Below the pieces are notes generated by a model. It saw only the letters and a list, made by a program, of their open reading frames with translations, made no database searches and was not told the origin of the DNA. A DNA stretch of 36,553 nucleotides from Spirochaetota bacterium (GTDB taxonomy: Bacteria > Spirochaetota > UBA4802 > UBA5550), in NCBI GenBank assembly GCA_003246895.1, contig QKCL01000041.1, positions 1 to 36,553 on the forward strand. The letters are read 5' to 3'. Positions 13,057 through 35,574 of this stretch are shown in pieces. A program made the position numbers and the translations under genes. Each line of letters opens with the position of its first letter. Within the stretch, counting starts at the first letter, position 1.

Positions 13057-13175
13057 ATAAGAAAAATAAAGCAAAATAAAATTATTTTAAAAAAAGAATG
13101 AAATATTGGGAAATGGATTAATTATTGGTTTTATTGATTAATATAAATAAATATAAAGTTTTGAGGAGATCAGTG

Positions 13176-14636
13176 ATGTTTAGCAAGATGAAATTATCTT
13201 CAAGAATAATGTTCATGGGGATTATGATTATTCTGGCTTTTTCCGGTGTGTTTATATGGCTCTATCCTGAAATAAAAGAGAATATGTACAGAGAAAAATA
13301 TGACAAGACTCGCAATCTTGTTGAATCTGCATATACCGTAATTGAACATTATGGAAAGGAAGCTGAAAAAGGGGCAATGTCGGTCGCCCAGGCGAAATCC
13401 ATGGCCATGGATGCGGTGGGCAGCATGAGATATGAAAAGATTGAGTACTTCTGGATAAGCGGTCTCGACGGGATTACTATCATGCACCCCATTGACAAAA
13501 AACTTGTGGGTCAGAGCATGCTTACTGTTAAGGACTCGCACGGAAAGATTTTTATGAATGAAATTATCTCTCAGGCCAAAAGCGACGGAGGAGGTTTTGT
13601 AAAATACTACTGGCATAAACCGGGTGAAACAAAACCCTCTCCAAAAATCACATACAGCAAATACTATAATAAATGGAACTGGATTGTTTCATCCGGCATC
13701 TATATTGATGATGTGGACAGTGAGGTAAATACCATGTTCCTTGCCATTGCCATTGCAGGCCTTATTATTGCCGCCTTTGCTTTGCTGGCATCATGGTTTA
13801 TTTCCAGAGCCATTGCAAATCCAATTCATAACATAATAACCGGACTTAATAGAAATTCAGACCATGTTGCTTCTGCTGCAGGGCAGGTATCTACCGCAAG
13901 CCAGTCTCTGGCAGAAGGTTCATCCGAGCAGTCTTCGTCTATAGAGGAGACATCTTCATCCCTTGAAGAGATGTCTGCAATGACAAAGCAGAGTTCGGAG
14001 AATGCCATTCATGCAGACAGGCTCATGAAGGATACTGCTGATGTGGTTTCTGTGGCTAACAATTCCATGAGTAAACTGATGGATTCAATGACTGATATAT
14101 CCGCAACCAGTGAAGAGATGTCAAGAATCATTAAAACCATAGAGGAAATAGCATTTCAGACCAATCTGCTGGCGCTTAATGCTGCGGTTGAAGCAGCCCG
14201 TGCCGGTTCTGCGGGAGCCGGTTTTGCGGTGGTGGCAGGAGAAGTCAGAAATCTGGCAATAAGGGCAGCAGAGGCGGCCAAGAATACATCTGCCATGCTT
14301 GAGGAAACTGTTACCAAAATAGGAAACGGTTCATCAATAGTAAATGAAGCAAATGAAATATTTCAGAAAATTTCAGAAAGTTCAGTTAATGTGGGCAGGC
14401 TGGTTAATGAAATAGCAATCGGCTCAAATGAGCAGGCAATGGGTATAGCTCAGGTGAATCAGGCAGTTGCCCAGATAGGGCAGGTTGTGCAGGAGAATGC
14501 TGCAAATGCTGAGGAATCTGCATCGGCTTCAGAAGAGATGGCATCCCAGGCAACATTGATGAAAGGTATTGTTATGGACCTTTCCCGGATAGTGGAAGGG
14601 GTGAAAAAGAATCAGGGAGGCGGCATCGATGCATGA
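13176..14636 (+). CDS. Methyl-accepting chemotaxis protein with single Cache domain (first of a pair)
   Basis: This 486-residue transmembrane chemoreceptor has a first membrane segment at about 10-29 and a periplasmic single-Cache type sensor (30-185; YFWISGLDGITIMHP and WNWIVSSGIYIDDV are typical). A second membrane segment lies at about 186-208, followed by a cytosolic signalling domain. The highly conserved hairpin tip (EIAFQTNLLALNAAVEAARAG, here only noted as present) is near 325-345. There is almost no HAMP domain; the membrane helix runs quickly into the coiled coil. No CheR/CheB pentapeptide is found at the C-terminus, which ends GGGIDA. GAGGAG at 13163-13168 sets the ATG at 13176; in-frame TTG 13125 is not supported. 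It is the paralogue of the next gene. Confidence 0.93.
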   Translation: MFSKMKLSSRIMFMGIMIILAFSGVFIWLYPEIKENMYREKYDKTRNLVESAYTVIEHYGKEAEKGAMSVAQAKSMAMDAVGSMRYEKIEYFWISGLDGITIMHPIDKKLVGQSMLTVKDSHGKIFMNEIISQAKSDGGGFVKYYWHKPGETKPSPKITYSKYYNKWNWIVSSGIYIDDVDSEVNTMFLAIAIAGLIIAAFALLASWFISRAIANPIHNIITGLNRNSDHVASAAGQVSTASQSLAEGSSEQSSSIEETSSSLEEMSAMTKQSSENAIHADRLMKDTADVVSVANNSMSKLMDSMTDISATSEEMSRIIKTIEEIAFQTNLLALNAAVEAARAGSAGAGFAVVAGEVRNLAIRAAEAAKNTSAMLEETVTKIGNGSSIVNEANEIFQKISESSVNVGRLVNEIAIGSNEQAMGIAQVNQAVAQIGQVVQENAANAEESASASEEMASQATLMKGIVMDLSRIVEGVKKNQGGGIDA

Positions 14637-14787
14637 AAGGGGAATGCTGCTGCTATTATGTCGCATGACGTTTAAGGGGTGCCTTTAAAAAATTGTAAAA
14701 AAAGTTCAAAATTGTTTTTTTGTTTGTATTGTAAAATTATAATTTCTAAATTATTTGTTACTATTATATAGAAAAGAGGAATTGGTT

Positions 14788-16377
14788 ATGCTCCACAGAA
14801 TAAAACTCTCTACCAGAATAGTTTTTCTAGGACTTCTTATTGTGTTCTGCTTTTCCATGGTCTTTGTCTGGCTTTATCCGAGACTTGAAAAGAGCATGTA
14901 TGATGCCAAATATGAAAAAACCAGGCATCTTGTTGAAGCTGCATGGACAATGATTGATCATTTTGCCAAGAAGGAGAAGGGCGGTGAACTCACAAAGGTT
15001 CAGGCTCAGCGCCTCGCCAAGGAGGCTATCCGCGACATGCGTTATGAGGGTGATGAGTACTTCTGGATCAATGATCTTCAGGGAATTATGATAATGCACA
15101 TAAATCCCAAAAAAATAGATACCAGCATGCTTGAAGACAGAGATGCACACGGAAAATATTTTTTCAAGGAGATGATTAAGGTTGCAAAGAACAATAATGA
15201 AGGTTTTGTTGATTATTACTATCCAAAACCCGGGGAAACTGTAGCATCCCCCAAGATTTCTTTTGTTAAGCTTATTCCACAGTGGGACTGGGTTGTTGGT
15301 TCGGGAATATATATTGATGATGTACAGAAGCAGCTCCGCAGCATGTTTATGATAGTAATAATTGTAGCCTCGGCCATAGCATTTTTTGGCATTCTGCTTT
15401 CATTTTTTATGGCAAGATCCATTGCCAGACCCATAAATAATATAATTGACGGCCTGAACAAGAGTTCTGATCAGGTTGCCTCTGCTGCCGGGCAGGTATC
15501 AATTGCCAGTCAGTCACTTGCAGAAGGTTCATCTGAGCAGTCTTCTTCGATAGAGGAAACATCATCATCTCTTGAACAGATGTCTGCAATGACGAAACAG
15601 AATGCCGAACACGCAGCGCGGGCGGATGAATTGATGAAGGATTCGAAGAAAATAGTGTCAGAGGCCAATGAATCCATGATTCAGCTCACTGAGTCCATGT
15701 CCGAGATTTCACATTCAAGCGGTGAAATGTCAAAAATAATAAAAACAATTGAAGAGATAGCATTTCAGACTAATCTGCTTGCACTTAATGCTGCAGTGGA
15801 AGCAGCCCGTGCCGGTTCTGCAGGTTCCGGTTTCGCGGTGGTTGCAGGAGAGGTCAGAAATCTTGCCATAAGGGCGGCTGATGCAGCAAAAAGTACATCA
15901 GAGATGCTTGAGGAAACAGTTTCAAAAATTGGTAACGGTTCGAAACTTGTTACAGAAACAAATGATGCTTTCATAAAGGTTTCTGAAAGTGCAGGCAAGG
16001 TTGGAGATCTGGTCAGTGAGATAGCCGTGGGGTCAAATGAACAGGCCATGGGTATAGATCAGGTTAATCAGGCCGTAGCCCAGATTGGGCAGGTTGTCCA
16101 GGAGAATGCTGCAAATGCCGAAGAATCCGCATCCGCCTCAGAGGAGATGAATGCACAGGCCGAGCAGATGAAAAGCATCGTGGCGGAGCTTTCAGCGATT
16201 ATATCCGGTTCATCGGTAAAAGCAACATCCTATGTCAGAGTCCCTGAACGGCAGGTGAAGAACTATAAGCAGCCGCACAGCAATAAAAAGGTTCCGGTGA
16301 AAGTTGGCGATGGAGCCAAATCGGAGAAACTGGTCAGCACTCTGCCTCATGATAATGAAGATTTCATTGAATTCTAG
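14788..16377 (+). CDS. Methyl-accepting chemotaxis protein with single Cache domain and CheR-type tail (second of a pair)
   Basis: This 529-residue receptor has the same plan as its neighbour: a membrane segment at about 10-28, a single-Cache sensor (YFWINDLQGIMIMH, WDWVVGSGIYIDDV), a second membrane segment near 190-212, and the conserved signalling hairpin. The signalling halves are nearly identical to the first gene, while the sensors differ more, as expected after duplication and change of ligand. It has a flexible, Lys-rich extension of about 50 residues that ends DNEDFIEF. An acidic-aromatic-x-x-Phe end like this resembles the pentapeptide that tethers CheR and CheB. AGAGGA (14775-14780) sets the start. 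A strong terminator follows. Ligands cannot be read from the sequence; small organic acids are common for this Cache type. Confidence 0.93.
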   Translation: MLHRIKLSTRIVFLGLLIVFCFSMVFVWLYPRLEKSMYDAKYEKTRHLVEAAWTMIDHFAKKEKGGELTKVQAQRLAKEAIRDMRYEGDEYFWINDLQGIMIMHINPKKIDTSMLEDRDAHGKYFFKEMIKVAKNNNEGFVDYYYPKPGETVASPKISFVKLIPQWDWVVGSGIYIDDVQKQLRSMFMIVIIVASAIAFFGILLSFFMARSIARPINNIIDGLNKSSDQVASAAGQVSIASQSLAEGSSEQSSSIEETSSSLEQMSAMTKQNAEHAARADELMKDSKKIVSEANESMIQLTESMSEISHSSGEMSKIIKTIEEIAFQTNLLALNAAVEAARAGSAGSGFAVVAGEVRNLAIRAADAAKSTSEMLEETVSKIGNGSKLVTETNDAFIKVSESAGKVGDLVSEIAVGSNEQAMGIDQVNQAVAQIGQVVQENAANAEESASASEEMNAQAEQMKSIVAELSAIISGSSVKATSYVRVPERQVKNYKQPHSNKKVPVKVGDGAKSEKLVSTLPHDNEDFIEF

Positions 16378-16473: not shown

Positions 16474-17199
16474 ATGAAACCGGTTTTGGAAATAGAGAAT
16501 CTTGGGAAGTCATTCGGGACAAAGGTTATTTTTGACAGAATCAGCTTTGCCGTGGGTCAGAATGAGGTTCTTTCAGTAATAGGGCAGAGCGGCACGGGCA
16601 AGTCAGTGCTTCTTAAAAATATAATGGGTATAATAAAGCCGGACAGCGGCAGTATTTTTGTTAACGGAAAAAATCTCTATACAAACAGCGGTGAAATAGA
16701 CAGGGAAATTCTTTCAAAAATGGGGATACTATTTCAGGGTGCGGCTTTATTTGATTCGCTGGATGTCTATGGGAATATCATGTTCGGCCTTGAAAGAAGC
16801 AAGATGGACATAATGGAAAAAAAGCGAAGGTTTAGTGATGTTCTGAACAGTCTGGGTCTTAGGGGGTATGAATCAAAATCAGTGTCTGAGCTTTCAGGAG
16901 GAATACAAAAAAGAGTCGGTCTGGCAAGAGCAATAGTGCTTAAGCCTGAAATTATGCTTTATGATGAGCCCACAACGGGGGTTGATCCTATAACAGCCGG
17001 AGTTGTAAACAGTCTCATCCTGAGAATGCGTGAAATATACGGCATGACGTCCATTGTTGTAACACATGATATAGAATCAGCATGCAGAATATCTGATAGA
17101 ATAATAATGCTCCATGGCGGAAATATTATTTTTTCAGGAACCCCTTCTGAATTGATGGAAAGTACATTGGAAGAAGTGACTGATTTTGTCAGGAGATGA
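16474..17199 (+). CDS. ABC transporter ATPase, MlaF-type (orphan)
   Basis: The 241-residue ATPase has Walker A GQSGTGKS (37-44), a Q-loop in ILFQGAALFDSLDVYGN that is characteristic of the MlaF/Ttg2A/Mkl group, the signature LSGGIQKRVGLARAI, Walker B IMLYDEPTTGVDP and the switch His in VVTHDI. MlaF-type ATPases energise MlaE permeases that move phospholipids between the two membranes with MlaD substrate-binding proteins. No mlaE or mlaD gene lies beside this copy, so the partner must be elsewhere, or it serves another permease. It is 42 bases past the terminator, so it probably has its own promoter. AAGAGA before the ATG is a modest ribosome site. Confidence 0.9.
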   Translation: MKPVLEIENLGKSFGTKVIFDRISFAVGQNEVLSVIGQSGTGKSVLLKNIMGIIKPDSGSIFVNGKNLYTNSGEIDREILSKMGILFQGAALFDSLDVYGNIMFGLERSKMDIMEKKRRFSDVLNSLGLRGYESKSVSELSGGIQKRVGLARAIVLKPEIMLYDEPTTGVDPITAGVVNSLILRMREIYGMTSIVVTHDIESACRISDRIIMLHGGNIIFSGTPSELMESTLEEVTDFVRR

Positions 17200-17267: not shown

Positions 17268-17303
17268 TATTACACAATAGAAAATATAAAGAAGGAGAAG
17301 TTT

Positions 17304-18428
17304 ATGGATTCATATAGTCATGAAACCGGTTCTTTTTCAGGAAAGGGCGGGATAGAGATATTTTTTCAGAAGTGGATTGCAGATAAGGCAAAGGCCATAG
17401 TCCTTGTTGTTCACAGCCTTGGTGAGCATTCCGGTAGATATGAGAATCTTATTAAGAGTCTGGCAAATAAAAACATTTCCGTCATGGCAATGGATCTTCG
17501 GGGGCATGGACGATCAGAGGGTGCCAGGGGACATATCGATTCGTTTATGGATTATATATATGACCTCAAATTGTTTGTTGAATACATTAAATCAGAATAT
17601 AATAACCTGCCCATCACTGTATATGGACATGGTGTCGGCGGTGTTATATCCACCAAGTATGCAGTTACATACTCCGGTGATGTTTCCGGACTGGTTCTTT
17701 CTTCTCCGGCATTTGCGCCTATTAACACTCTTTCAGGTCTGAAGAAAGGTATTGTTTCATTTTTTTCACCGCGTATTCCTACACTTTCAATGTCTTCCTG
17801 GATAGATGCAAACAGTCTTTCGCGGGATGAGGAAACAGTAAAAACATATAAAGATGATAAGCTTACTCACGGAAAAGTTACGGTAAGATGGATTACCGAA
17901 TATATGAGTGCCGGCAGCGACTGCCTTAAGAGCTCTCACCTTGTAAAATGTCCGACGCTGGTTTTTCAGGGTAAGGCCGATACAGTTGCAGATTATACCA
18001 TCACCGAAAAATTCTATGAAGGAATAAAGGTTGAAAAGGAGCTGCTTCTTTATGATAATCTTTATCATGAAACAATAAATGAACCTCTTGGAGAGAGGGA
18101 AAAGGTCCTTTCCGAAATTGTCAGGTGGGTTGCTTCAAAGGCTTCATCTTTGAAGGGTGCAATAAAAAACGTCACCCCTAAAGGAACCTCTTTAAAAAAA
18201 GCATCTGCTAAAAAGGCAGTCTCTAAGAAGGAAATAGCAAAGAAGCCTGCTGCCAAAAAGAGCACGGCTAAAAAAACCACTGAAAAGAAAACCGCAGTAA
18301 AAAAATCTGCATCGAAGAAAACTTCTGCTAAAAAGGCAGTCTCTAAGAAGGAAACAACAAAGAAGCCTGCTTCCAAAAAAAGTGCGTCTAAAAAAACTAC
18401 TGCAAAGAAAACAAAAACCAAAAAATAG
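17304..18428 (+). CDS. Monoglyceride-lipase-like alpha/beta fold protein with Gly at the nucleophile position and a histone-H1-like tail
   Basis: Residues 1-280 are an alpha/beta hydrolase of the Hydrolase_4/monoglyceride lipase type. HSLGEHSGRY (37-46) is the oxyanion-hole region, and DLRGHGRSEG (64-73) is typical of the family. However, the nucleophile elbow reads GHGVGG (108-113), not GHSMGG: the catalytic Ser is Gly110 (codon GGT). The acid Asp226 (GKADTV) and the base His255 (LYHETINE) are kept. Residues 290-374 form a tail of about 85 residues made almost only of K, A, S and T, like histone H1 tails and bacterial HU/Hc1-type PAKKA tails. It contains a 40-residue duplicated unit. The tail would bind nucleic acid or another polyanion. 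The gene is cytosolic with no signal peptide and has AAGGAG before the ATG. A role as a pseudoenzyme is inferred. Confidence 0.8.
   Translation: MDSYSHETGSFSGKGGIEIFFQKWIADKAKAIVLVVHSLGEHSGRYENLIKSLANKNISVMAMDLRGHGRSEGARGHIDSFMDYIYDLKLFVEYIKSEYNNLPITVYGHGVGGVISTKYAVTYSGDVSGLVLSSPAFAPINTLSGLKKGIVSFFSPRIPTLSMSSWIDANSLSRDEETVKTYKDDKLTHGKVTVRWITEYMSAGSDCLKSSHLVKCPTLVFQGKADTVADYTITEKFYEGIKVEKELLLYDNLYHETINEPLGEREKVLSEIVRWVASKASSLKGAIKNVTPKGTSLKKASAKKAVSKKEIAKKPAAKKSTAKKTTEKKTAVKKSASKKTSAKKAVSKKETTKKPASKKSASKKTTAKKTKTKK
18204..18413 (+). repeat. In-frame direct repeat, 120-bp period, inside the lysine-rich tail
   Basis: Two 90-base copies start 120 bases apart (18204-18293 and 18324-18413) and differ at about ten positions by hand count. 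They encode 30-residue units beginning SAKKAVSKKE. The period is a multiple of three, so copies can be gained or lost without a frameshift. Confidence 0.85.
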
Positions 18429-18662: not shown

Positions 18663-18691
18663 TATTTTAATCGATTCTTCGGAGGTTTATG

Positions 18692-19909
18692 ATGATTAAT
18701 GCAGCTGATACAGCCTGGGTAATTGTCGCTACAATTCTTGTAATGATTATGACTCCAACGCTGGCTTTTTTCTATGGCGGACTTGTCAGGAAAAAAAATA
18801 TGCTTTCGGTACTTATGCAATGTATGGTAATACTTGCAGTTATTTCAATTCAGTGGATTTTATTCGGTTACAGTCTGGCCTTTGGTCCTGACCATGGCGG
18901 AATTATCGGCAGTCTGAAATATGCTTTTCTTAATGGAGTGGGACTTGACCCCATTGAGGGGCAGACTATTCCAGCTCAATTATTTGTATGTTTTCAGATG
19001 ATGTTCGCAGTAATTACTCCCGCTCTTATGGTTGGTGCTTTTGTGGAGAGAATTAAGTTTTCAGGGTTTCTCCTTTTTGTAGTACTCTGGTCAACTCTTA
19101 TCTATGATCCGATGTGCCACATGGTATGGGGGAAAGGAGGATGGCTTTTTGATAAGGGAGCTCTTGATTTTGCAGGCGGTACTGTTATTCATATAACAGC
19201 CGGTATTTCTGCACTAGTAGCATCAATGATGATAGGGAAGAGAAGCGGAAACGGTATGTCAAGTTCACCGCATAATCTGCCTTTCGCTGTTCTCGGCGCA
19301 GCATTTCTGTGGATGGGATGGTTCGGATTTAATGCGGGAAGTGCTCTTGGTGTCGGTAAGCAGACAGTATCTGCATTTATCAATACCAACACCGCTGCAG
19401 CGGCGGCGCTTATTGCATGGATGGCTTTAGACTGGTTTATAAACAAAATTCCAACAGTACTTGGAGTAATTACTGGTGTAGTAGCCGGTCTTGTTGCAAT
19501 CACTCCTGCAGCAGGTTTTGTAACACCAATGGCTTCTATAGCTATAGGTGCAGGGGGGAGTATAATAGGTTTCATTTTCGTTACATGTATAAAACCAAAA
19601 TTTGGTTATGACGATTCCCTTGACGTATTCGGAGTCCATGGTATGGCTGGGGTCTGGGGTGCTCTTGCAACCGGTATCTTTGCTGTGAAGGAAGTCGGCG
19701 GTACAGATGGTCTTCTTAGGGGCAACTGGCATCAGATGTGGGTGCAGGCTGAAGGTGTGCTTGTGGCTATTGCTCTCTCGGTTGTTGGTACTTTTATTAT
19801 TTTTAAAATATGTGATCTTTTGATTGGGATGCGCGTAGACATGAGAGATGAAAATATCGGACTTGATCTTACCCAGCACCATGAAGCCGGTTATACTCTT
19901 ATAGATTAA
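18692..19909 (+). CDS. amtB: Ammonium transporter
   Basis: AmtB is an inner-membrane trimer that conducts ammonium. The product of about 405 residues has some eleven hydrophobic segments. Family features include FFYGGLVRKKN (27-37), YDPMCHMVWGKGGWL (139-153), DFAGGTVIHITAG (160-172), with the conserved Asp160 and first pore His168, and DVFGVHGMAGVWGALATG with the second pore His317 (numbering from the first of two adjacent ATGs at 18689). GGAGG (18681-18685) is six bases from the second ATG and only three from the first, so 18692 is preferred. PII starts 16 bases after the stop. The twin histidines are intact, so transport should be normal. PII would block the cytosolic exit in nitrogen excess. 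Confidence 0.96.
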   Translation: MINAADTAWVIVATILVMIMTPTLAFFYGGLVRKKNMLSVLMQCMVILAVISIQWILFGYSLAFGPDHGGIIGSLKYAFLNGVGLDPIEGQTIPAQLFVCFQMMFAVITPALMVGAFVERIKFSGFLLFVVLWSTLIYDPMCHMVWGKGGWLFDKGALDFAGGTVIHITAGISALVASMMIGKRSGNGMSSSPHNLPFAVLGAAFLWMGWFGFNAGSALGVGKQTVSAFINTNTAAAAALIAWMALDWFINKIPTVLGVITGVVAGLVAITPAAGFVTPMASIAIGAGGSIIGFIFVTCIKPKFGYDDSLDVFGVHGMAGVWGALATGIFAVKEVGGTDGLLRGNWHQMWVQAEGVLVAIALSVVGTFIIFKICDLLIGMRVDMRDENIGLDLTQHHEAGYTLID

Positions 19910-19925: not shown

Positions 19926-20267
19926 ATGAAATATATAATTGCAGTAATTAGACCTCATAAACTTGAAGAGGTAAAAAAATCCCTTGAGGCTAACGGAGTT
20001 AACCTGATGACAGTTGTAGATGTTCTCGGCTGTGGAAGACAGAAGGGGATTACGGAAGTATATAGGGGAGTCAAGGAGGTCGATAATCTCCTGAGAAAAA
20101 TCAAACTGGAAATTGCTGTTAATGATGAATATCTGGATGCAGCAATTGATGCGATAATGAAGGCAGCTCCTGAAGGTGATGTGGGAGATGGTAAAATTTT
20201 TGTTTTTGACATGGCCCAATGTATCCGTATCAGAACCGGTGAAAAGGGTAATGAAGCCATCGGATAA
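19926..20267 (+). CDS. glnK: Nitrogen regulatory PII protein (GlnK-type) lacking Tyr51
   Basis: The 113-residue protein is a PII trimer subunit that senses ATP/ADP and 2-oxoglutarate and docks on AmtB. The T-loop region [12 protein letters not shown] (37-48), the B-loop [10 protein letters not shown] and the C-loop RIRTGEKG are all present, so the nucleotide site looks complete. The residue aligned with E. coli Tyr51, the uridylylation site, is Glu51, with no gap: both proteins have ten residues between YRG and the following Lys-x-(K/E) stretch. Position 49, phosphorylated in cyanobacteria, is Val. It is therefore probably regulated by effectors alone. The gene is coupled to amtB, with GAGGTGAGCT before the ATG, and is followed by a terminator. 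Confidence 0.93.
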
Positions 20268-26427: not shown

Positions 26428-27174
26428 CTATTTGCCGGCCTGTTTTTTCCCTTCCGTTGCCTGTTTCAGAAGTCTCACTTCCCCGGTTTTCAGTTCCCTG
26501 AAATCCCCCCTGTTCAGCCTGAGCATGTTAAGAGGGCCGTATCCGATTCTTTTAAGCTTTGTCACATTGTATCCCAGATTCTTGAATGAATACCTGATCT
26601 GTCTCTTTTTCCCTTCTATAATAGCCACTTTAACAAACTTTCGGGATTTATCGGAAATTGTAATCGAAGCAGGCCTTGTCTTTGTCTTGATCTGGTGAAT
26701 AAAAAATCCCTTGGCTATCCTTTTTAGATCAATTTCTTCCAGGGGCTTGTCAATTTCTACGAGATATTCTTTTCTTACCTTGAAGTCAGGCCCGGTCAGC
26801 TTATGAGCAAGGTCTCCGTCATTTGTAAGAATAAGAAGACCTTCAGTGTCCTTATCGAGTCTCCCCACCGGGACGACACCGCTTCTTATGTATTTTTCGG
26901 GCAGAAGGTCCATTACCGTGGCTCTCCCCTTTTCATCACTGAGTGTAGTGATATACCCCCTTGGTTTGTTAACCATTAGATAATAAAGCTTTCCTATGGG
27001 GGAGAGGGTCTTCTTTTCAAATGTAACTGTATCTGATTCAGAGTCAATTACCGTGGACAGATTCGTAACAACAGTTTTATTAACTGAAATTTTTCCATCC
27101 TTAATAAGTTCTTCGACCTTTCTCCTCGATCCGAGTCCGCAGAGAACGAGATATTTATTGAGTCTTACTTCCAT
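26428..27174 (-). CDS. Pseudouridine synthase, RluB/RsuA family
   Basis: The enzyme isomerises a uridine in rRNA. The 248-residue product has an N-terminal S4 RNA-binding domain (about 1-50: RLNKYLVLCGLGSRRKVEELI) and the catalytic domain with VGRLDKDTEGLLILTNDG (103-120), where Asp107 is the nucleophile, and the family end motif GPLNMLRLNRGDFRELKTGE. The exact rRNA position (RluB 2605 or RsuA 516 type) is not decidable by eye, although GPL and RLNRG favour RluB. The start at 27174 is set by AAGGA just upstream on the minus strand; a longer frame to 27258 only adds an implausible Lys/Arg run that is the overlapping neighbour gene read out of frame. It overlaps the end of the upstream lipoprotein gene by 20 bases. 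Confidence 0.9.
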   Translation of the reverse strand: MEVRLNKYLVLCGLGSRRKVEELIKDGKISVNKTVVTNLSTVIDSESDTVTFEKKTLSPIGKLYYLMVNKPRGYITTLSDEKGRATVMDLLPEKYIRSGVVPVGRLDKDTEGLLILTNDGDLAHKLTGPDFKVRKEYLVEIDKPLEEIDLKRIAKGFFIHQIKTKTRPASITISDKSRKFVKVAIIEGKKRQIRYSFKNLGYNVTKLKRIGYGPLNMLRLNRGDFRELKTGEVRLLKQATEGKKQAGK

Positions 27175-27925
27175 TTTTATCCTTTTTTTCCTTTGGAGCT
27201 TTCTTCTGTTCTTTTTCCTTCTTTTCCGCCTCTTTCTCATCATCAGTCTGGGGGTCAATATTTATCTTTTTAAACATGATTTCCCCCTTCTCTGATTCTT
27301 TTGCCAGAACATAGAGAGATCCTCTTTTGAAAAATCTCAGATTATCCTTGAAGGATGTACCTTCAGAGAACACGATTGAGTTGTCATTGAAGTTGAATGT
27401 ATAATCTCCCTTGATTTTTTTCTGACTCTGTTTCAGGTAGGATTTGTATTTCCCGTCCCTGTATATTTCAAGTGAATGGCTGGTAAAATCTCCAAAACGG
27501 TTAACACTCCACCATTTTCCATGGAGTGCAGTTCTCAATGTTTCGGTTTCCTTTTCCCAGAATTTCTCGAGATACTTGTCTATGTCGCTTCTGTTTGATC
27601 CGTCCAGAACCTTCAGGTGTTCTCCATATGTCCAGCCGATGATCCCGTTTTTAAGTTTAATCTTGTACCAGTAGTTTTTTGTGTTTCCAATATATTTTAC
27701 TTCCTTTGAACGGTCAAGAATCTCAACTATATCACCTTTCTTCATCTGATCTACCCGGGATGAGAATATGAGCGGGTCGATTCTCAATGAAGTATTTGGA
27801 GTCAGAATTATGCCCATCCCCTGTTTTCTGTCCTTTTCAGGGTCCCATTGTTTTGATTTGTCTCCGGAACAGGAAACAAGCAGTAACAGGGCCGTCATTG
27901 ATAAAATTGATTTGGTTATTTTCAT
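27155..27925 (-). CDS. Lipoprotein with SH3-like domain and charged tail
   Basis: The product has a lipoprotein signal ending LLLLVSC (Cys19). An SH3b-like module lies at about 38-108 (NTSLRIDPLIFSSRVDQMKKGDIVEIL, YWYKIKLKNGIIGWTYGEHL), a fold found in envelope proteins that bind peptidoglycan peptides. A second strand-rich domain at 130-225 follows, with W-G-like lipocalin-type spacing (GKWWSVNRFGDFTSHSLEIYRDGKYKSY is not extended here). The end is a Lys/Glu-rich tail (225-256). It has AGGT five bases before the ATG and a TTGACA-based promoter. It shares its last 20 bases with the rluB-like gene, so translation is probably coupled. Its precise role is unknown; anchoring to the cell wall is a guess. 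Confidence 0.72.
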   Translation of the reverse strand: MKITKSILSMTALLLLVSCSGDKSKQWDPEKDRKQGMGIILTPNTSLRIDPLIFSSRVDQMKKGDIVEILDRSKEVKYIGNTKNYWYKIKLKNGIIGWTYGEHLKVLDGSNRSDIDKYLEKFWEKETETLRTALHGKWWSVNRFGDFTSHSLEIYRDGKYKSYLKQSQKKIKGDYTFNFNDNSIVFSEGTSFKDNLRFFKRGSLYVLAKESEKGEIMFKKINIDPQTDDEKEAEKKEKEQKKAPKEKKDKNGSKTQ

Positions 27926-34275: not shown

Positions 34276-35574
34276 TTATTCGTCAAAAAATCCCTCTTCA
34301 TCATCAACTGAATCTGTATTTTTTCTTCTTTTTTCTCTTTTCCATCTTGCCTTGTCTGTCTTTGTCCATGATTCAACAACATGCCTTGAAATGGTCTCCT
34401 CAATGCTTGTTCTGTTTTTGCGTGCGGGCTTGTTTTTTTTGACGTTTTTGTTTCTCTTGTTTTTTGATTTATATTCCTCCATCTCCTTGAGGGTAAGGGA
34501 CACCTCTGTGTCTGTGAAAGTCTTTAAAGGTGTGACGCTGTTTTTGCCGGCAGCAACTGAATCAGCTATCTGTGATATCATTTTTTTATTAATCAGGTCA
34601 TCCATGAAGTTTTTGTGGACAGGTACGGAAAAAAAAGCCTGGGAAATAACGGCTGTCGCAGATGTTAGAGCCGAAGAAGATCCCCCGAGCCGTGCAGTTT
34701 TATAAATGATATCCTGATCCGCTTTATTATAATGGTTCATGAGAACTGCATAGAGAAAGATCAGGGAGGGATTGTCGACAGTTGCCCGGATAAGGTGTGA
34801 TCCTGATCTTTTGTTTTCATCATCTACGATAGATCTTTCTGAATTTTCAATATCCCTTTCGCCAAAGGCCTTTTCGAGCGATCCTGTCAGAAATTCTGCT
34901 TCCTTAAGAAAATAGTCCGGGTTGAAACCGTGACTGAAAATTACTGACTGGGAATCTGCAATATCCCTGATGCAGTTTTTCAGCATGTTGACGATTGTTG
35001 AGGAGAAATCGCCGTTCTCCTGCTTGTTCCTGAGCTGTTTGCCTGTGATATAACAGAATAGAAAGGATGCGGTCAGGGATCTGCAGTCTTCGGAGAAGAG
35101 TTTCATGAAAGATAAAAAACCGTCGAGAAACTCTGAGAATGAACCTTTCATGGTCGAAAGGGGAAGGGATATTGGAATCAGGCGGGATGAAGCTGTTCTG
35201 TCTGTCTCCAGGATGTGATAGTCTCCAGCGGTTGCGATGAGAATTTCTTCCGCTCTCCCGGGATTTCTGAAAAATGAGTCCGGCCTTTCGGGTAATACTG
35301 GCAGATTCCTGATGTATCTTTTGAATCCTTCGACATCGGTGTGGTTTCTTTCCCTGAACATGAAAATAATCAGTATAAACTGGCTTATGGATGAATAGAG
35401 GCCGGGTTTTTTCCATTTTTCCATGTTCCCCTTTAACGCATCTGTTGTGTCGGGGAATTCGCTGTGGTTCCTGAAAAAGCTGTCTATGTGGCCCTTTTTC
35501 ATCCCCTCAAAGACATATCCCGCTGCATCTCCTGCAATGGCGGATTTGATGATTTCAGAAAGTGCTTCAGACAT
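34276..35574 (-). CDS. Degenerate ADP-ribosylglycohydrolase-like protein with basic tail
   Basis: Residues 1-320 follow the all-helical ADP-ribosylglycohydrolase (DraG/ARH) layout. SAIAGDAAGYVFE (11-23) matches the GxxxGDALG start. The metal-binding WTDDTQ motif is replaced by GLYSSISQ (58-65), and the GGDTDT motif by LGGSSSALTSAT (297-308). All the Asp/Thr metal ligands are therefore lost, although the flanking helices still match. It is probably a pseudoenzyme that may bind ADP-ribose or a protein partner. Residues 375-432 form a Lys/Arg-rich tail with acidic end, suitable for nucleic acid or protein binding. GGAG lies eight bases before the ATG. It is divergent from the FecR gene. The fold call is by eye and is the weakest part. 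Confidence 0.6.
   Translation of the reverse strand: MSEALSEIIKSAIAGDAAGYVFEGMKKGHIDSFFRNHSEFPDTTDALKGNMEKWKKPGLYSSISQFILIIFMFRERNHTDVEGFKRYIRNLPVLPERPDSFFRNPGRAEEILIATAGDYHILETDRTASSRLIPISLPLSTMKGSFSEFLDGFLSFMKLFSEDCRSLTASFLFCYITGKQLRNKQENGDFSSTIVNMLKNCIRDIADSQSVIFSHGFNPDYFLKEAEFLTGSLEKAFGERDIENSERSIVDDENKRSGSHLIRATVDNPSLIFLYAVLMNHYNKADQDIIYKTARLGGSSSALTSATAVISQAFFSVPVHKNFMDDLINKKMISQIADSVAAGKNSVTPLKTFTDTEVSLTLKEMEEYKSKNKRNKNVKKNKPARKNRTSIEETISRHVVESWTKTDKARWKREKRRKNTDSVDDEEGFFDE

Follow-up and report, generated by a model that had tools for sequence, protein, structure and literature searches.

A predicted pseudohydrolase with a histone H1-like tail in a Spirochaetota family of tailed monoacylglycerol lipase-like proteins

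Gene organization and neighbourhood

The window analysed here is a stretch of 36,553 nucleotides (contig QKCL01000041.1) from a spirochaete genome of 3.57 Mb in 95 contigs. It contains an ORF at 17304-18428(+), whose intact reading frame encodes 374 residues: an alpha/beta-hydrolase domain followed by a lysine-rich tail (Table 1). The named relatives of the genome are the MAGs HGW-Spirochaetae-5, ADurb.Bin218 and UBA5368, and the genomes compared included no further species of its genus.

Table 1. Features of the tailed lipase-like gene and of its conserved neighbours, in window coordinates
Feature	Position	Strand	Basis or remark
ABC-transporter ATPase	16474..17199	+	conserved upstream neighbour in family f1
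AAGGAG, ribosome-binding-site-like, 6 nt 5' of ATG	17292..17297	+	sequence
Whole gene, monoacylglycerol-lipase-like predicted pseudohydrolase with H1-like tail, 374 aa	17304..18428	+	
Alpha/beta-hydrolase (Hydrolase_4 / MGL) domain, residues 1-279	17304..18140	+	PF12146; AF2 model vs Rv0183
Ser38 (AGC), precedes oxyanion-hole residue Leu39	17415..17417	+	Gly in all Ser-type homologues
Gly110 (GGT), catalytic-nucleophile position	17631..17633	+	Ser in 37 other tailed-clade orthologues
Asp226 (GAT), catalytic acid, kept	17979..17981	+	Asp in 49/49 homologues
His255 (CAT), catalytic base, kept	18066..18068	+	His in 49/49 homologues
Lys/Ala/Ser/Thr tail, 95 aa, predicted disordered, net about +33	18141..18425	+	HC2 match, pLDDT, composition
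Imperfect 120-bp tandem duplication within the tail, 1.9 copies, 85% matches	18204..18426	+	
Terminator-like hairpin AAAAGAGAGG-ttaatg-CCTCTCTTTTTT, past the stop codon	18450..18477	+	by eye; absent from the scanner's list
Ammonium transporter (amt)	18689..19909	+	conserved downstream neighbour in part of family f1
PII-like glnB	19926..20267	+	conserved downstream neighbour in part of family f1

Homologues of the protein (E <= 1e-30) were found in 41 of the 46 genomes of the order, the closest being 55% identical. In family f1, an ABC ATPase precedes the lipase gene in 10 of 20 loci, and amt and glnB follow it in several genomes (L072, L082, L083 and L089). L072 (G014) shows the complete order ABC-lipase-amt-glnB of the window, and other loci show part of it. 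Since its location is the same as in family f1, the window gene is a positional orthologue and not a paralogue. The PII and ammonium-transporter neighbours prove nothing about its function. No second close homologue occurs in the window genome, so that the Gly form described below stands alone. An intact close paralogue covering its function was therefore rejected, the other PF12146 matches being distant ones.

Several relatives carry an extra gene of about 460-490 aa, with an amidase-like start, between the ABC ATPase and the lipase. In families f3, f5 and f7 (L075, L076, L077, L078, L085 and L088), the surroundings of the lipase gene are conserved too, but different: it lies downstream of a protein of roughly 610 aa and two lipoprotein-like genes. 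Elsewhere in the window, positions 13125-16377 encode two methyl-accepting chemotaxis proteins that lie side by side and resemble each other closely; sCache_2 and MCPsignal domains were recognised in the second.

A monoacylglycerol lipase fold lacking the catalytic serine

The Hydrolase_4 profile (PF12146) matches residues 28-261 with 244 bits (E 1.1e-72 to 1.8e-72). The nearest solved structures by sequence are monoacylglycerol lipases, with Rv0183 of M. tuberculosis first (phmmer, 1.3e-33). Rv0183 is also the best PDB match of the AlphaFold2 model (6eic; Foldseek E 1.4e-19, TM 0.74 by target length). This model was built from a three-sequence alignment; its core is fairly confident (many blocks at 75-88), its cap and N-terminus are weak, and its mean pLDDT of 56 makes it too weak for placing Ser38 or judging the pocket. 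By sequence and fold, the window protein is thus a homologous member of the Hydrolase_4 / monoacylglycerol lipase family.

The catalytic triad of the M. tuberculosis enzyme (mtbMGL) consists of Ser110-Asp226-His256, and its oxyanion hole is formed by the backbone of Leu39 and Met111 (PMC5997763). The equivalents in the window protein are Gly110, Asp226, His255, Leu39 and Val111. Its elbow (residues 108-113) reads GHGVGG and, since Gly110 is aligned to Ser110 of mtbMGL, the nucleophile of the GxSxG motif is missing; of the 49 homologues, 46 have Ser at this position. Asp226 and His255 correspond in the alignment to the catalytic Asp and His of solved monoacylglycerol lipases, and both are found in all 49 homologues, including the three Gly forms. 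The alignment therefore bears out the sequence-only reading, which had reported a Gly at the nucleophile position of the elbow with the Asp and His of the triad remaining. That reading had missed a second change: the HGxGEH oxyanion segment reads HSLGEH, Ser38 replacing a Gly found in 46 of the 49 homologues. As judged from these residues, the window protein is without the machinery for serine hydrolysis. The cap and the HGxGEH region otherwise resemble those of Rv0183, the catalytic Asp having the same number and the His differing by one. In contrast to this enzyme, the window protein has Gly for Ser110, Ser for Gly38 and a polycationic tail of 95 residues.

A conserved basic tail

The tail (residues 280-374) contains 36 Lys (38%), 16 Ala, 13 Ser, 13 Thr and 3 Glu, and neither Asp nor Arg. 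Its pLDDT of about 26-32 predicts disorder, and most of its DNA is the imperfect tandem duplication. It is slightly longer than the 85 residues first estimated from the letters. Long, disordered, rich in Lys and Ala and nearly free of acidic residues, it has the traits of H1-like (Hc2) tails. The match to the Hc2 profile (PF07382; residues 274-374) is just above the cut-off (40.4 bits against 40), is driven by composition and concerns a tail sitting on an unrelated domain. This profile proved a poor marker of the tail: just 8 of the order's 46 genomes have a match, and in G000 and G008 alone does it lie in the lipase gene.

A basic tail occurs on nearly every orthologue in this Spirochaetota order. 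Always basic, it varies in length from 8 to 119 aa, a few orthologues having hardly any tail (8-12 aa). The type of repeat differs from one orthologue to another, for instance KKAPVKKAAAKPAA or KPAAKKAAPKA. Hence, composition is conserved and sequence is not, as would be expected of a disordered polycation. A local fusion accident unique to the window is thereby ruled out.

We also ordered 298 predicted genes from 21 loci by the net charge of their 40 C-terminal residues. The lipase gene takes all of the first 17 places. Just two other genes reach +10; as other genes account for no more than 2 of the 19 most basic C-termini in these loci, a genome-wide habit of basic C-termini was ruled out. 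As the lipase gene has the most basic C-termini in 17 of the 21 loci sampled, the tail is not a chance feature. In homologues sampled from other Spirochaetota families, the basic tail is absent and the Ser is present. These homologues, and distant paralogues within the order, have Ser and mostly stop a few residues past the domain, two having extensions of 24-26 residues that are not basic. Order-wide presence, gene-specific charge and absence from the homologues sampled elsewhere therefore mark the tail as both conserved in this group of orthologues and specific to it. Being conserved, it is probably functional.

Some Ser-type orthologues (L010, L042 and L043) have almost no tail, and the Gly forms keep long ones. 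The domain and the tail thus appear to be separable modules, which fits a putative bifunctional protein in which either function may be dropped.

Other lysine-rich stretches were observed. At 27155-27925 and 34276-35574 of the window, ORFs on the minus strand have Lys-rich C-terminal stretches that include acidic residues and are much weaker than the lipase tail. A further protein of the window genome, of 244 aa (G000:C87 near 29355; L069:1468-2202, plus strand), is Lys-rich and H1-like over a stretch close to its N-terminus (KKTVKKTAAKKAASKKTTSKKVTSK) and matches HC2 weakly (18.4 bits). In two relatives, HC2-like matches above the cut-off also lie outside the lipase gene, at G011:C4:195463-195819(-) and G030:C134:55476-55718(+), and these are separate H1-like proteins or tails of the order.

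Probable repeated loss of the nucleophile

Conservation of Gly at the nucleophile site, a point raised by the sequence-only reading, was not found. Besides the Gly forms, all 37 other tailed-clade orthologues compared have Ser at this position, so the change is rare. Gly recurs in two species of one genus of family f3 (L045 in G038 and L046 in G026), which constitute a second Gly lineage. The search for homologues having both parts thus recovered the tail across the order on orthologues that nearly all keep Ser, from which it follows that the tail and the loss of Ser are separate events.

Twenty-seven columns are strictly invariant across the 37 Ser-type orthologues. The window protein differs at two of them, G38S and S110G, both catalytic. 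Since positions 38 and 110 are invariant in the Ser-type proteins, these changes are not due to chance. L045 and L046 differ only at G38D, E41G, H109E and S110G, all in the two active-site loops. Both lineages therefore share the replacement of Ser by Gly and of Gly38 by another residue (Ser in the window protein, Asp in L045 and L046), and both keep Asp226, His255 and the tail (67 aa in L046; L147 for the other species). With departures from invariant columns confined to active-site loops, the catalytic change appears targeted.

The maximum-likelihood tree requires two changes to the Gly state, and a single origin was recovered in 0 of 200 bootstrap trees. A second tree for this analysis left the catalytic columns out. 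With p 0.09, the AU test falls short of a formal rejection of one origin. Branches are long: 1.02 for the window protein against 0.21-0.43 for its sisters (2-5x), and 2.61 for the stem of the second lineage, which is compatible with relaxed constraint. The gene neighbourhoods also differ, the window gene having f1 neighbours and L075 those of the Ser-type loci L076 and L077 of its own family. It is therefore likely, from trees and gene order, that the serine was lost twice, independently, in the order. The sequence-only reading had held that most close homologues having Ser and no tail would point to a recent local mutation. The homologues do have Ser, but they are not tail-less, and the second, probably independent lineage with its matching change in the oxyanion loop counts against a recent local mutation alone.

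Between the bodies of L045 and L046 (280 codons), 41.5 synonymous and 19.5 non-synonymous differences were counted. Their dN/dS, by the crude Nei-Gojobori method, is 0.115, against 0.02 to 0.10 for Ser-type pairs. The Gly form is therefore maintained by purifying selection in this second lineage; the figure covers this pair alone, the nearest relative of the window protein being 55% identical. In the window protein, all invariant residues outside the active site are kept, which is not decay-like. Despite its long branch, the window gene thus does not look like one in decay.

Comparison with known systems

The NDRG family (PF03096) is a precedent for a hydrolase fold turned non-enzymatic: like the window protein, it combines an alpha/beta-hydrolase fold that has lost catalytic residues with a flexible C-terminal region (PMC7022630). 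However, the whole triad is replaced in NDRG3, whereas the window protein keeps Asp and His. Membership of this family was rejected, as the Ndr profile gives 18.7 bits for the window protein against a cut-off of 23.3 (24.7 for L046), far below Hydrolase_4.

For the tail, the closest parallels are proteins that bind DNA. The Lys-rich C-terminus of MLDS, a lipid-droplet protein of Rhodococcus, binds DNA and no longer does so when Lys is changed to Glu (PMC5504291), and the C-terminal domain of mycobacterial HbhA is required for DNA binding (PMC10665949). Both share with the window protein a Lys-rich C-terminal region, theirs binding DNA without sequence specificity, and MLDS joins lipid and DNA (PMC5504291, PMC10665949). 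The resemblance lies in tail composition. To our knowledge, the N-terminal parts of MLDS and HbhA are not alpha/beta-hydrolases. AlgP and PhaF of pseudomonads, another precedent for Lys-rich tails binding DNA, have KPAA-type H1-like tails and position granules through polyphosphate or PHA and DNA (PMC9239181). In contrast to the window protein, their N-terminal parts are helical or predicted so and are not enzymes. The window genome has a PPK1 (2e-49), which makes polyphosphate possible and nothing more; DNA and polyphosphate are therefore both possible targets of the tail. The N-domain of PHA synthase (PhaC_N) was not found in this genome by a search that was positive in a control, which speaks against a PHA-granule tether. 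A search for the neutral-lipid synthase WS/DGAT, which would bear on a lipid-droplet tether, was positive in none of its controls.

Possible roles of the tailed domain

Gly110 and Ser38, with fold and tail kept, make the window protein most likely a tethered binding protein and not a lipase. We give a probability of about one half to its being a polyanion-tethered predicted pseudoenzyme from a tailed lipase family with repeated loss of catalysis. The family, found in one Spirochaetota order, would comprise cytosolic monoacylglycerol lipase-like hydrolases whose disordered polycationic tail would attach them by electrostatic attraction to a polyanion inside the cell. The most favoured candidate is nucleoid DNA, with polyphosphate or acidic membrane as alternatives. 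The hydrolase domain may bind an acyl or lipid ligand or a partner. In the lineage of the window protein, and in a second genus by what is probably an independent event, replacement of Ser by Gly and of the oxyanion-loop Gly by Ser or Asp would have ended serine hydrolysis, with the fold, Asp, His and tail all retained. Several points weigh against this reading: complete conservation of Asp and His would be surprising in a protein that only binds, the tail nearly disappears in a few orthologues, the AU test and the long branches leave the double origin short of formal proof, and the nearest homologue of the window protein is rather distant.

The main rival is a membrane clamp, in which the tail would anchor a domain that handles monoacylglycerol or lysophospholipid to acidic phospholipids of the inner membrane, DNA would not be involved and Gly forms would bind lipids without cleaving them. 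Polybasic tails generally bind acidic membranes. The lipid-handling fold and the conserved upstream ABC ATPase, which has MlaF-like matches among many others, favour this role, as does the failure to find PhaC_N, which leaves a granule tether unsuggested. However, the MlaF-like matches are not specific, and the tail is long, Ala/Ser/Thr-rich and HC2-scoring, without the hydrophobic or amphipathic residues usual in clamps; we regard the clamp as rather unlikely. A changed chemistry, in which the Asp-His pair would activate water directly or Ser38/Asp38 beside the oxyanion hole would become catalytic, could account for the persistence of Asp and His in every homologue despite long branches and for the arrival of a polar, potentially reactive residue at position 38 in both Gly lineages. 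Yet this residue differs between the lineages, position 38 precedes the oxyanion residue and a side chain there would be expected to crowd the site, and the structural model is too inaccurate to lend support. This makes such a chemistry improbable.

Decay deserves only slightly less credit. The lipase could have become dispensable in the Gly lineages, leaving a drifting gene with its tail as a passive leftover. Both lineages are indeed on long branches and, as the genome has no close homologue besides the Gly form, the ancestral activity has not been kept by a close copy. However, the frame is intact, 25 of the 27 invariant residues are kept in the window protein, the departures are catalytic instead of scattered, and the second lineage is under purifying selection. 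Finally, each codon change could be reached by one transition from a common codon (AGY/GGY), as a sequencing or assembly error at codons 38 and 110 might do; but such an error would have hit two separate catalytic positions in an otherwise clean frame, and changes of this kind also occur in two further genomes (L045 and L046), so we consider it very improbable.

Of the sequence-only reading, the observation is thus confirmed and the interpretation partly supported. The combination that it called unusual, a hydrolase fold without serine machinery and a conserved H1-like tail, is real but not peculiar to the window protein. The DNA binding, nucleoid organisation and lipid sensing that it proposed are candidate functions.

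Implications for the family

Small proteins of the bacterial nucleoid and of granules are already known to carry Lys-rich tails; in the papers searched, we found no report of such a tail as an order-wide fixture of a lipase. The locus matters less as a single odd protein than as a member of a family of tailed lipases that spans an order and has probably lost catalysis repeatedly and in a targeted way. Probable recurrent loss of the serine with the tail kept suggests a second, binding job beyond lipid breakdown. Because Ser and Gly forms bearing this tail both occur in nature, the role of the tailed domain without catalysis can be told apart from its role as an enzyme. A more specific proposal is rather unlikely as it stands: H1-like tails would tether lipid-binding hydrolase domains to the nucleoid, with catalysis repeatedly dispensed with, giving a sensor of lipid status or an organiser that acts on the chromosome, and Ser-type members would work as enzymes in the same place. 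Binding of the tail to the nucleoid, if real, would link lipid turnover to the chromosome in a little-studied group of bacteria.
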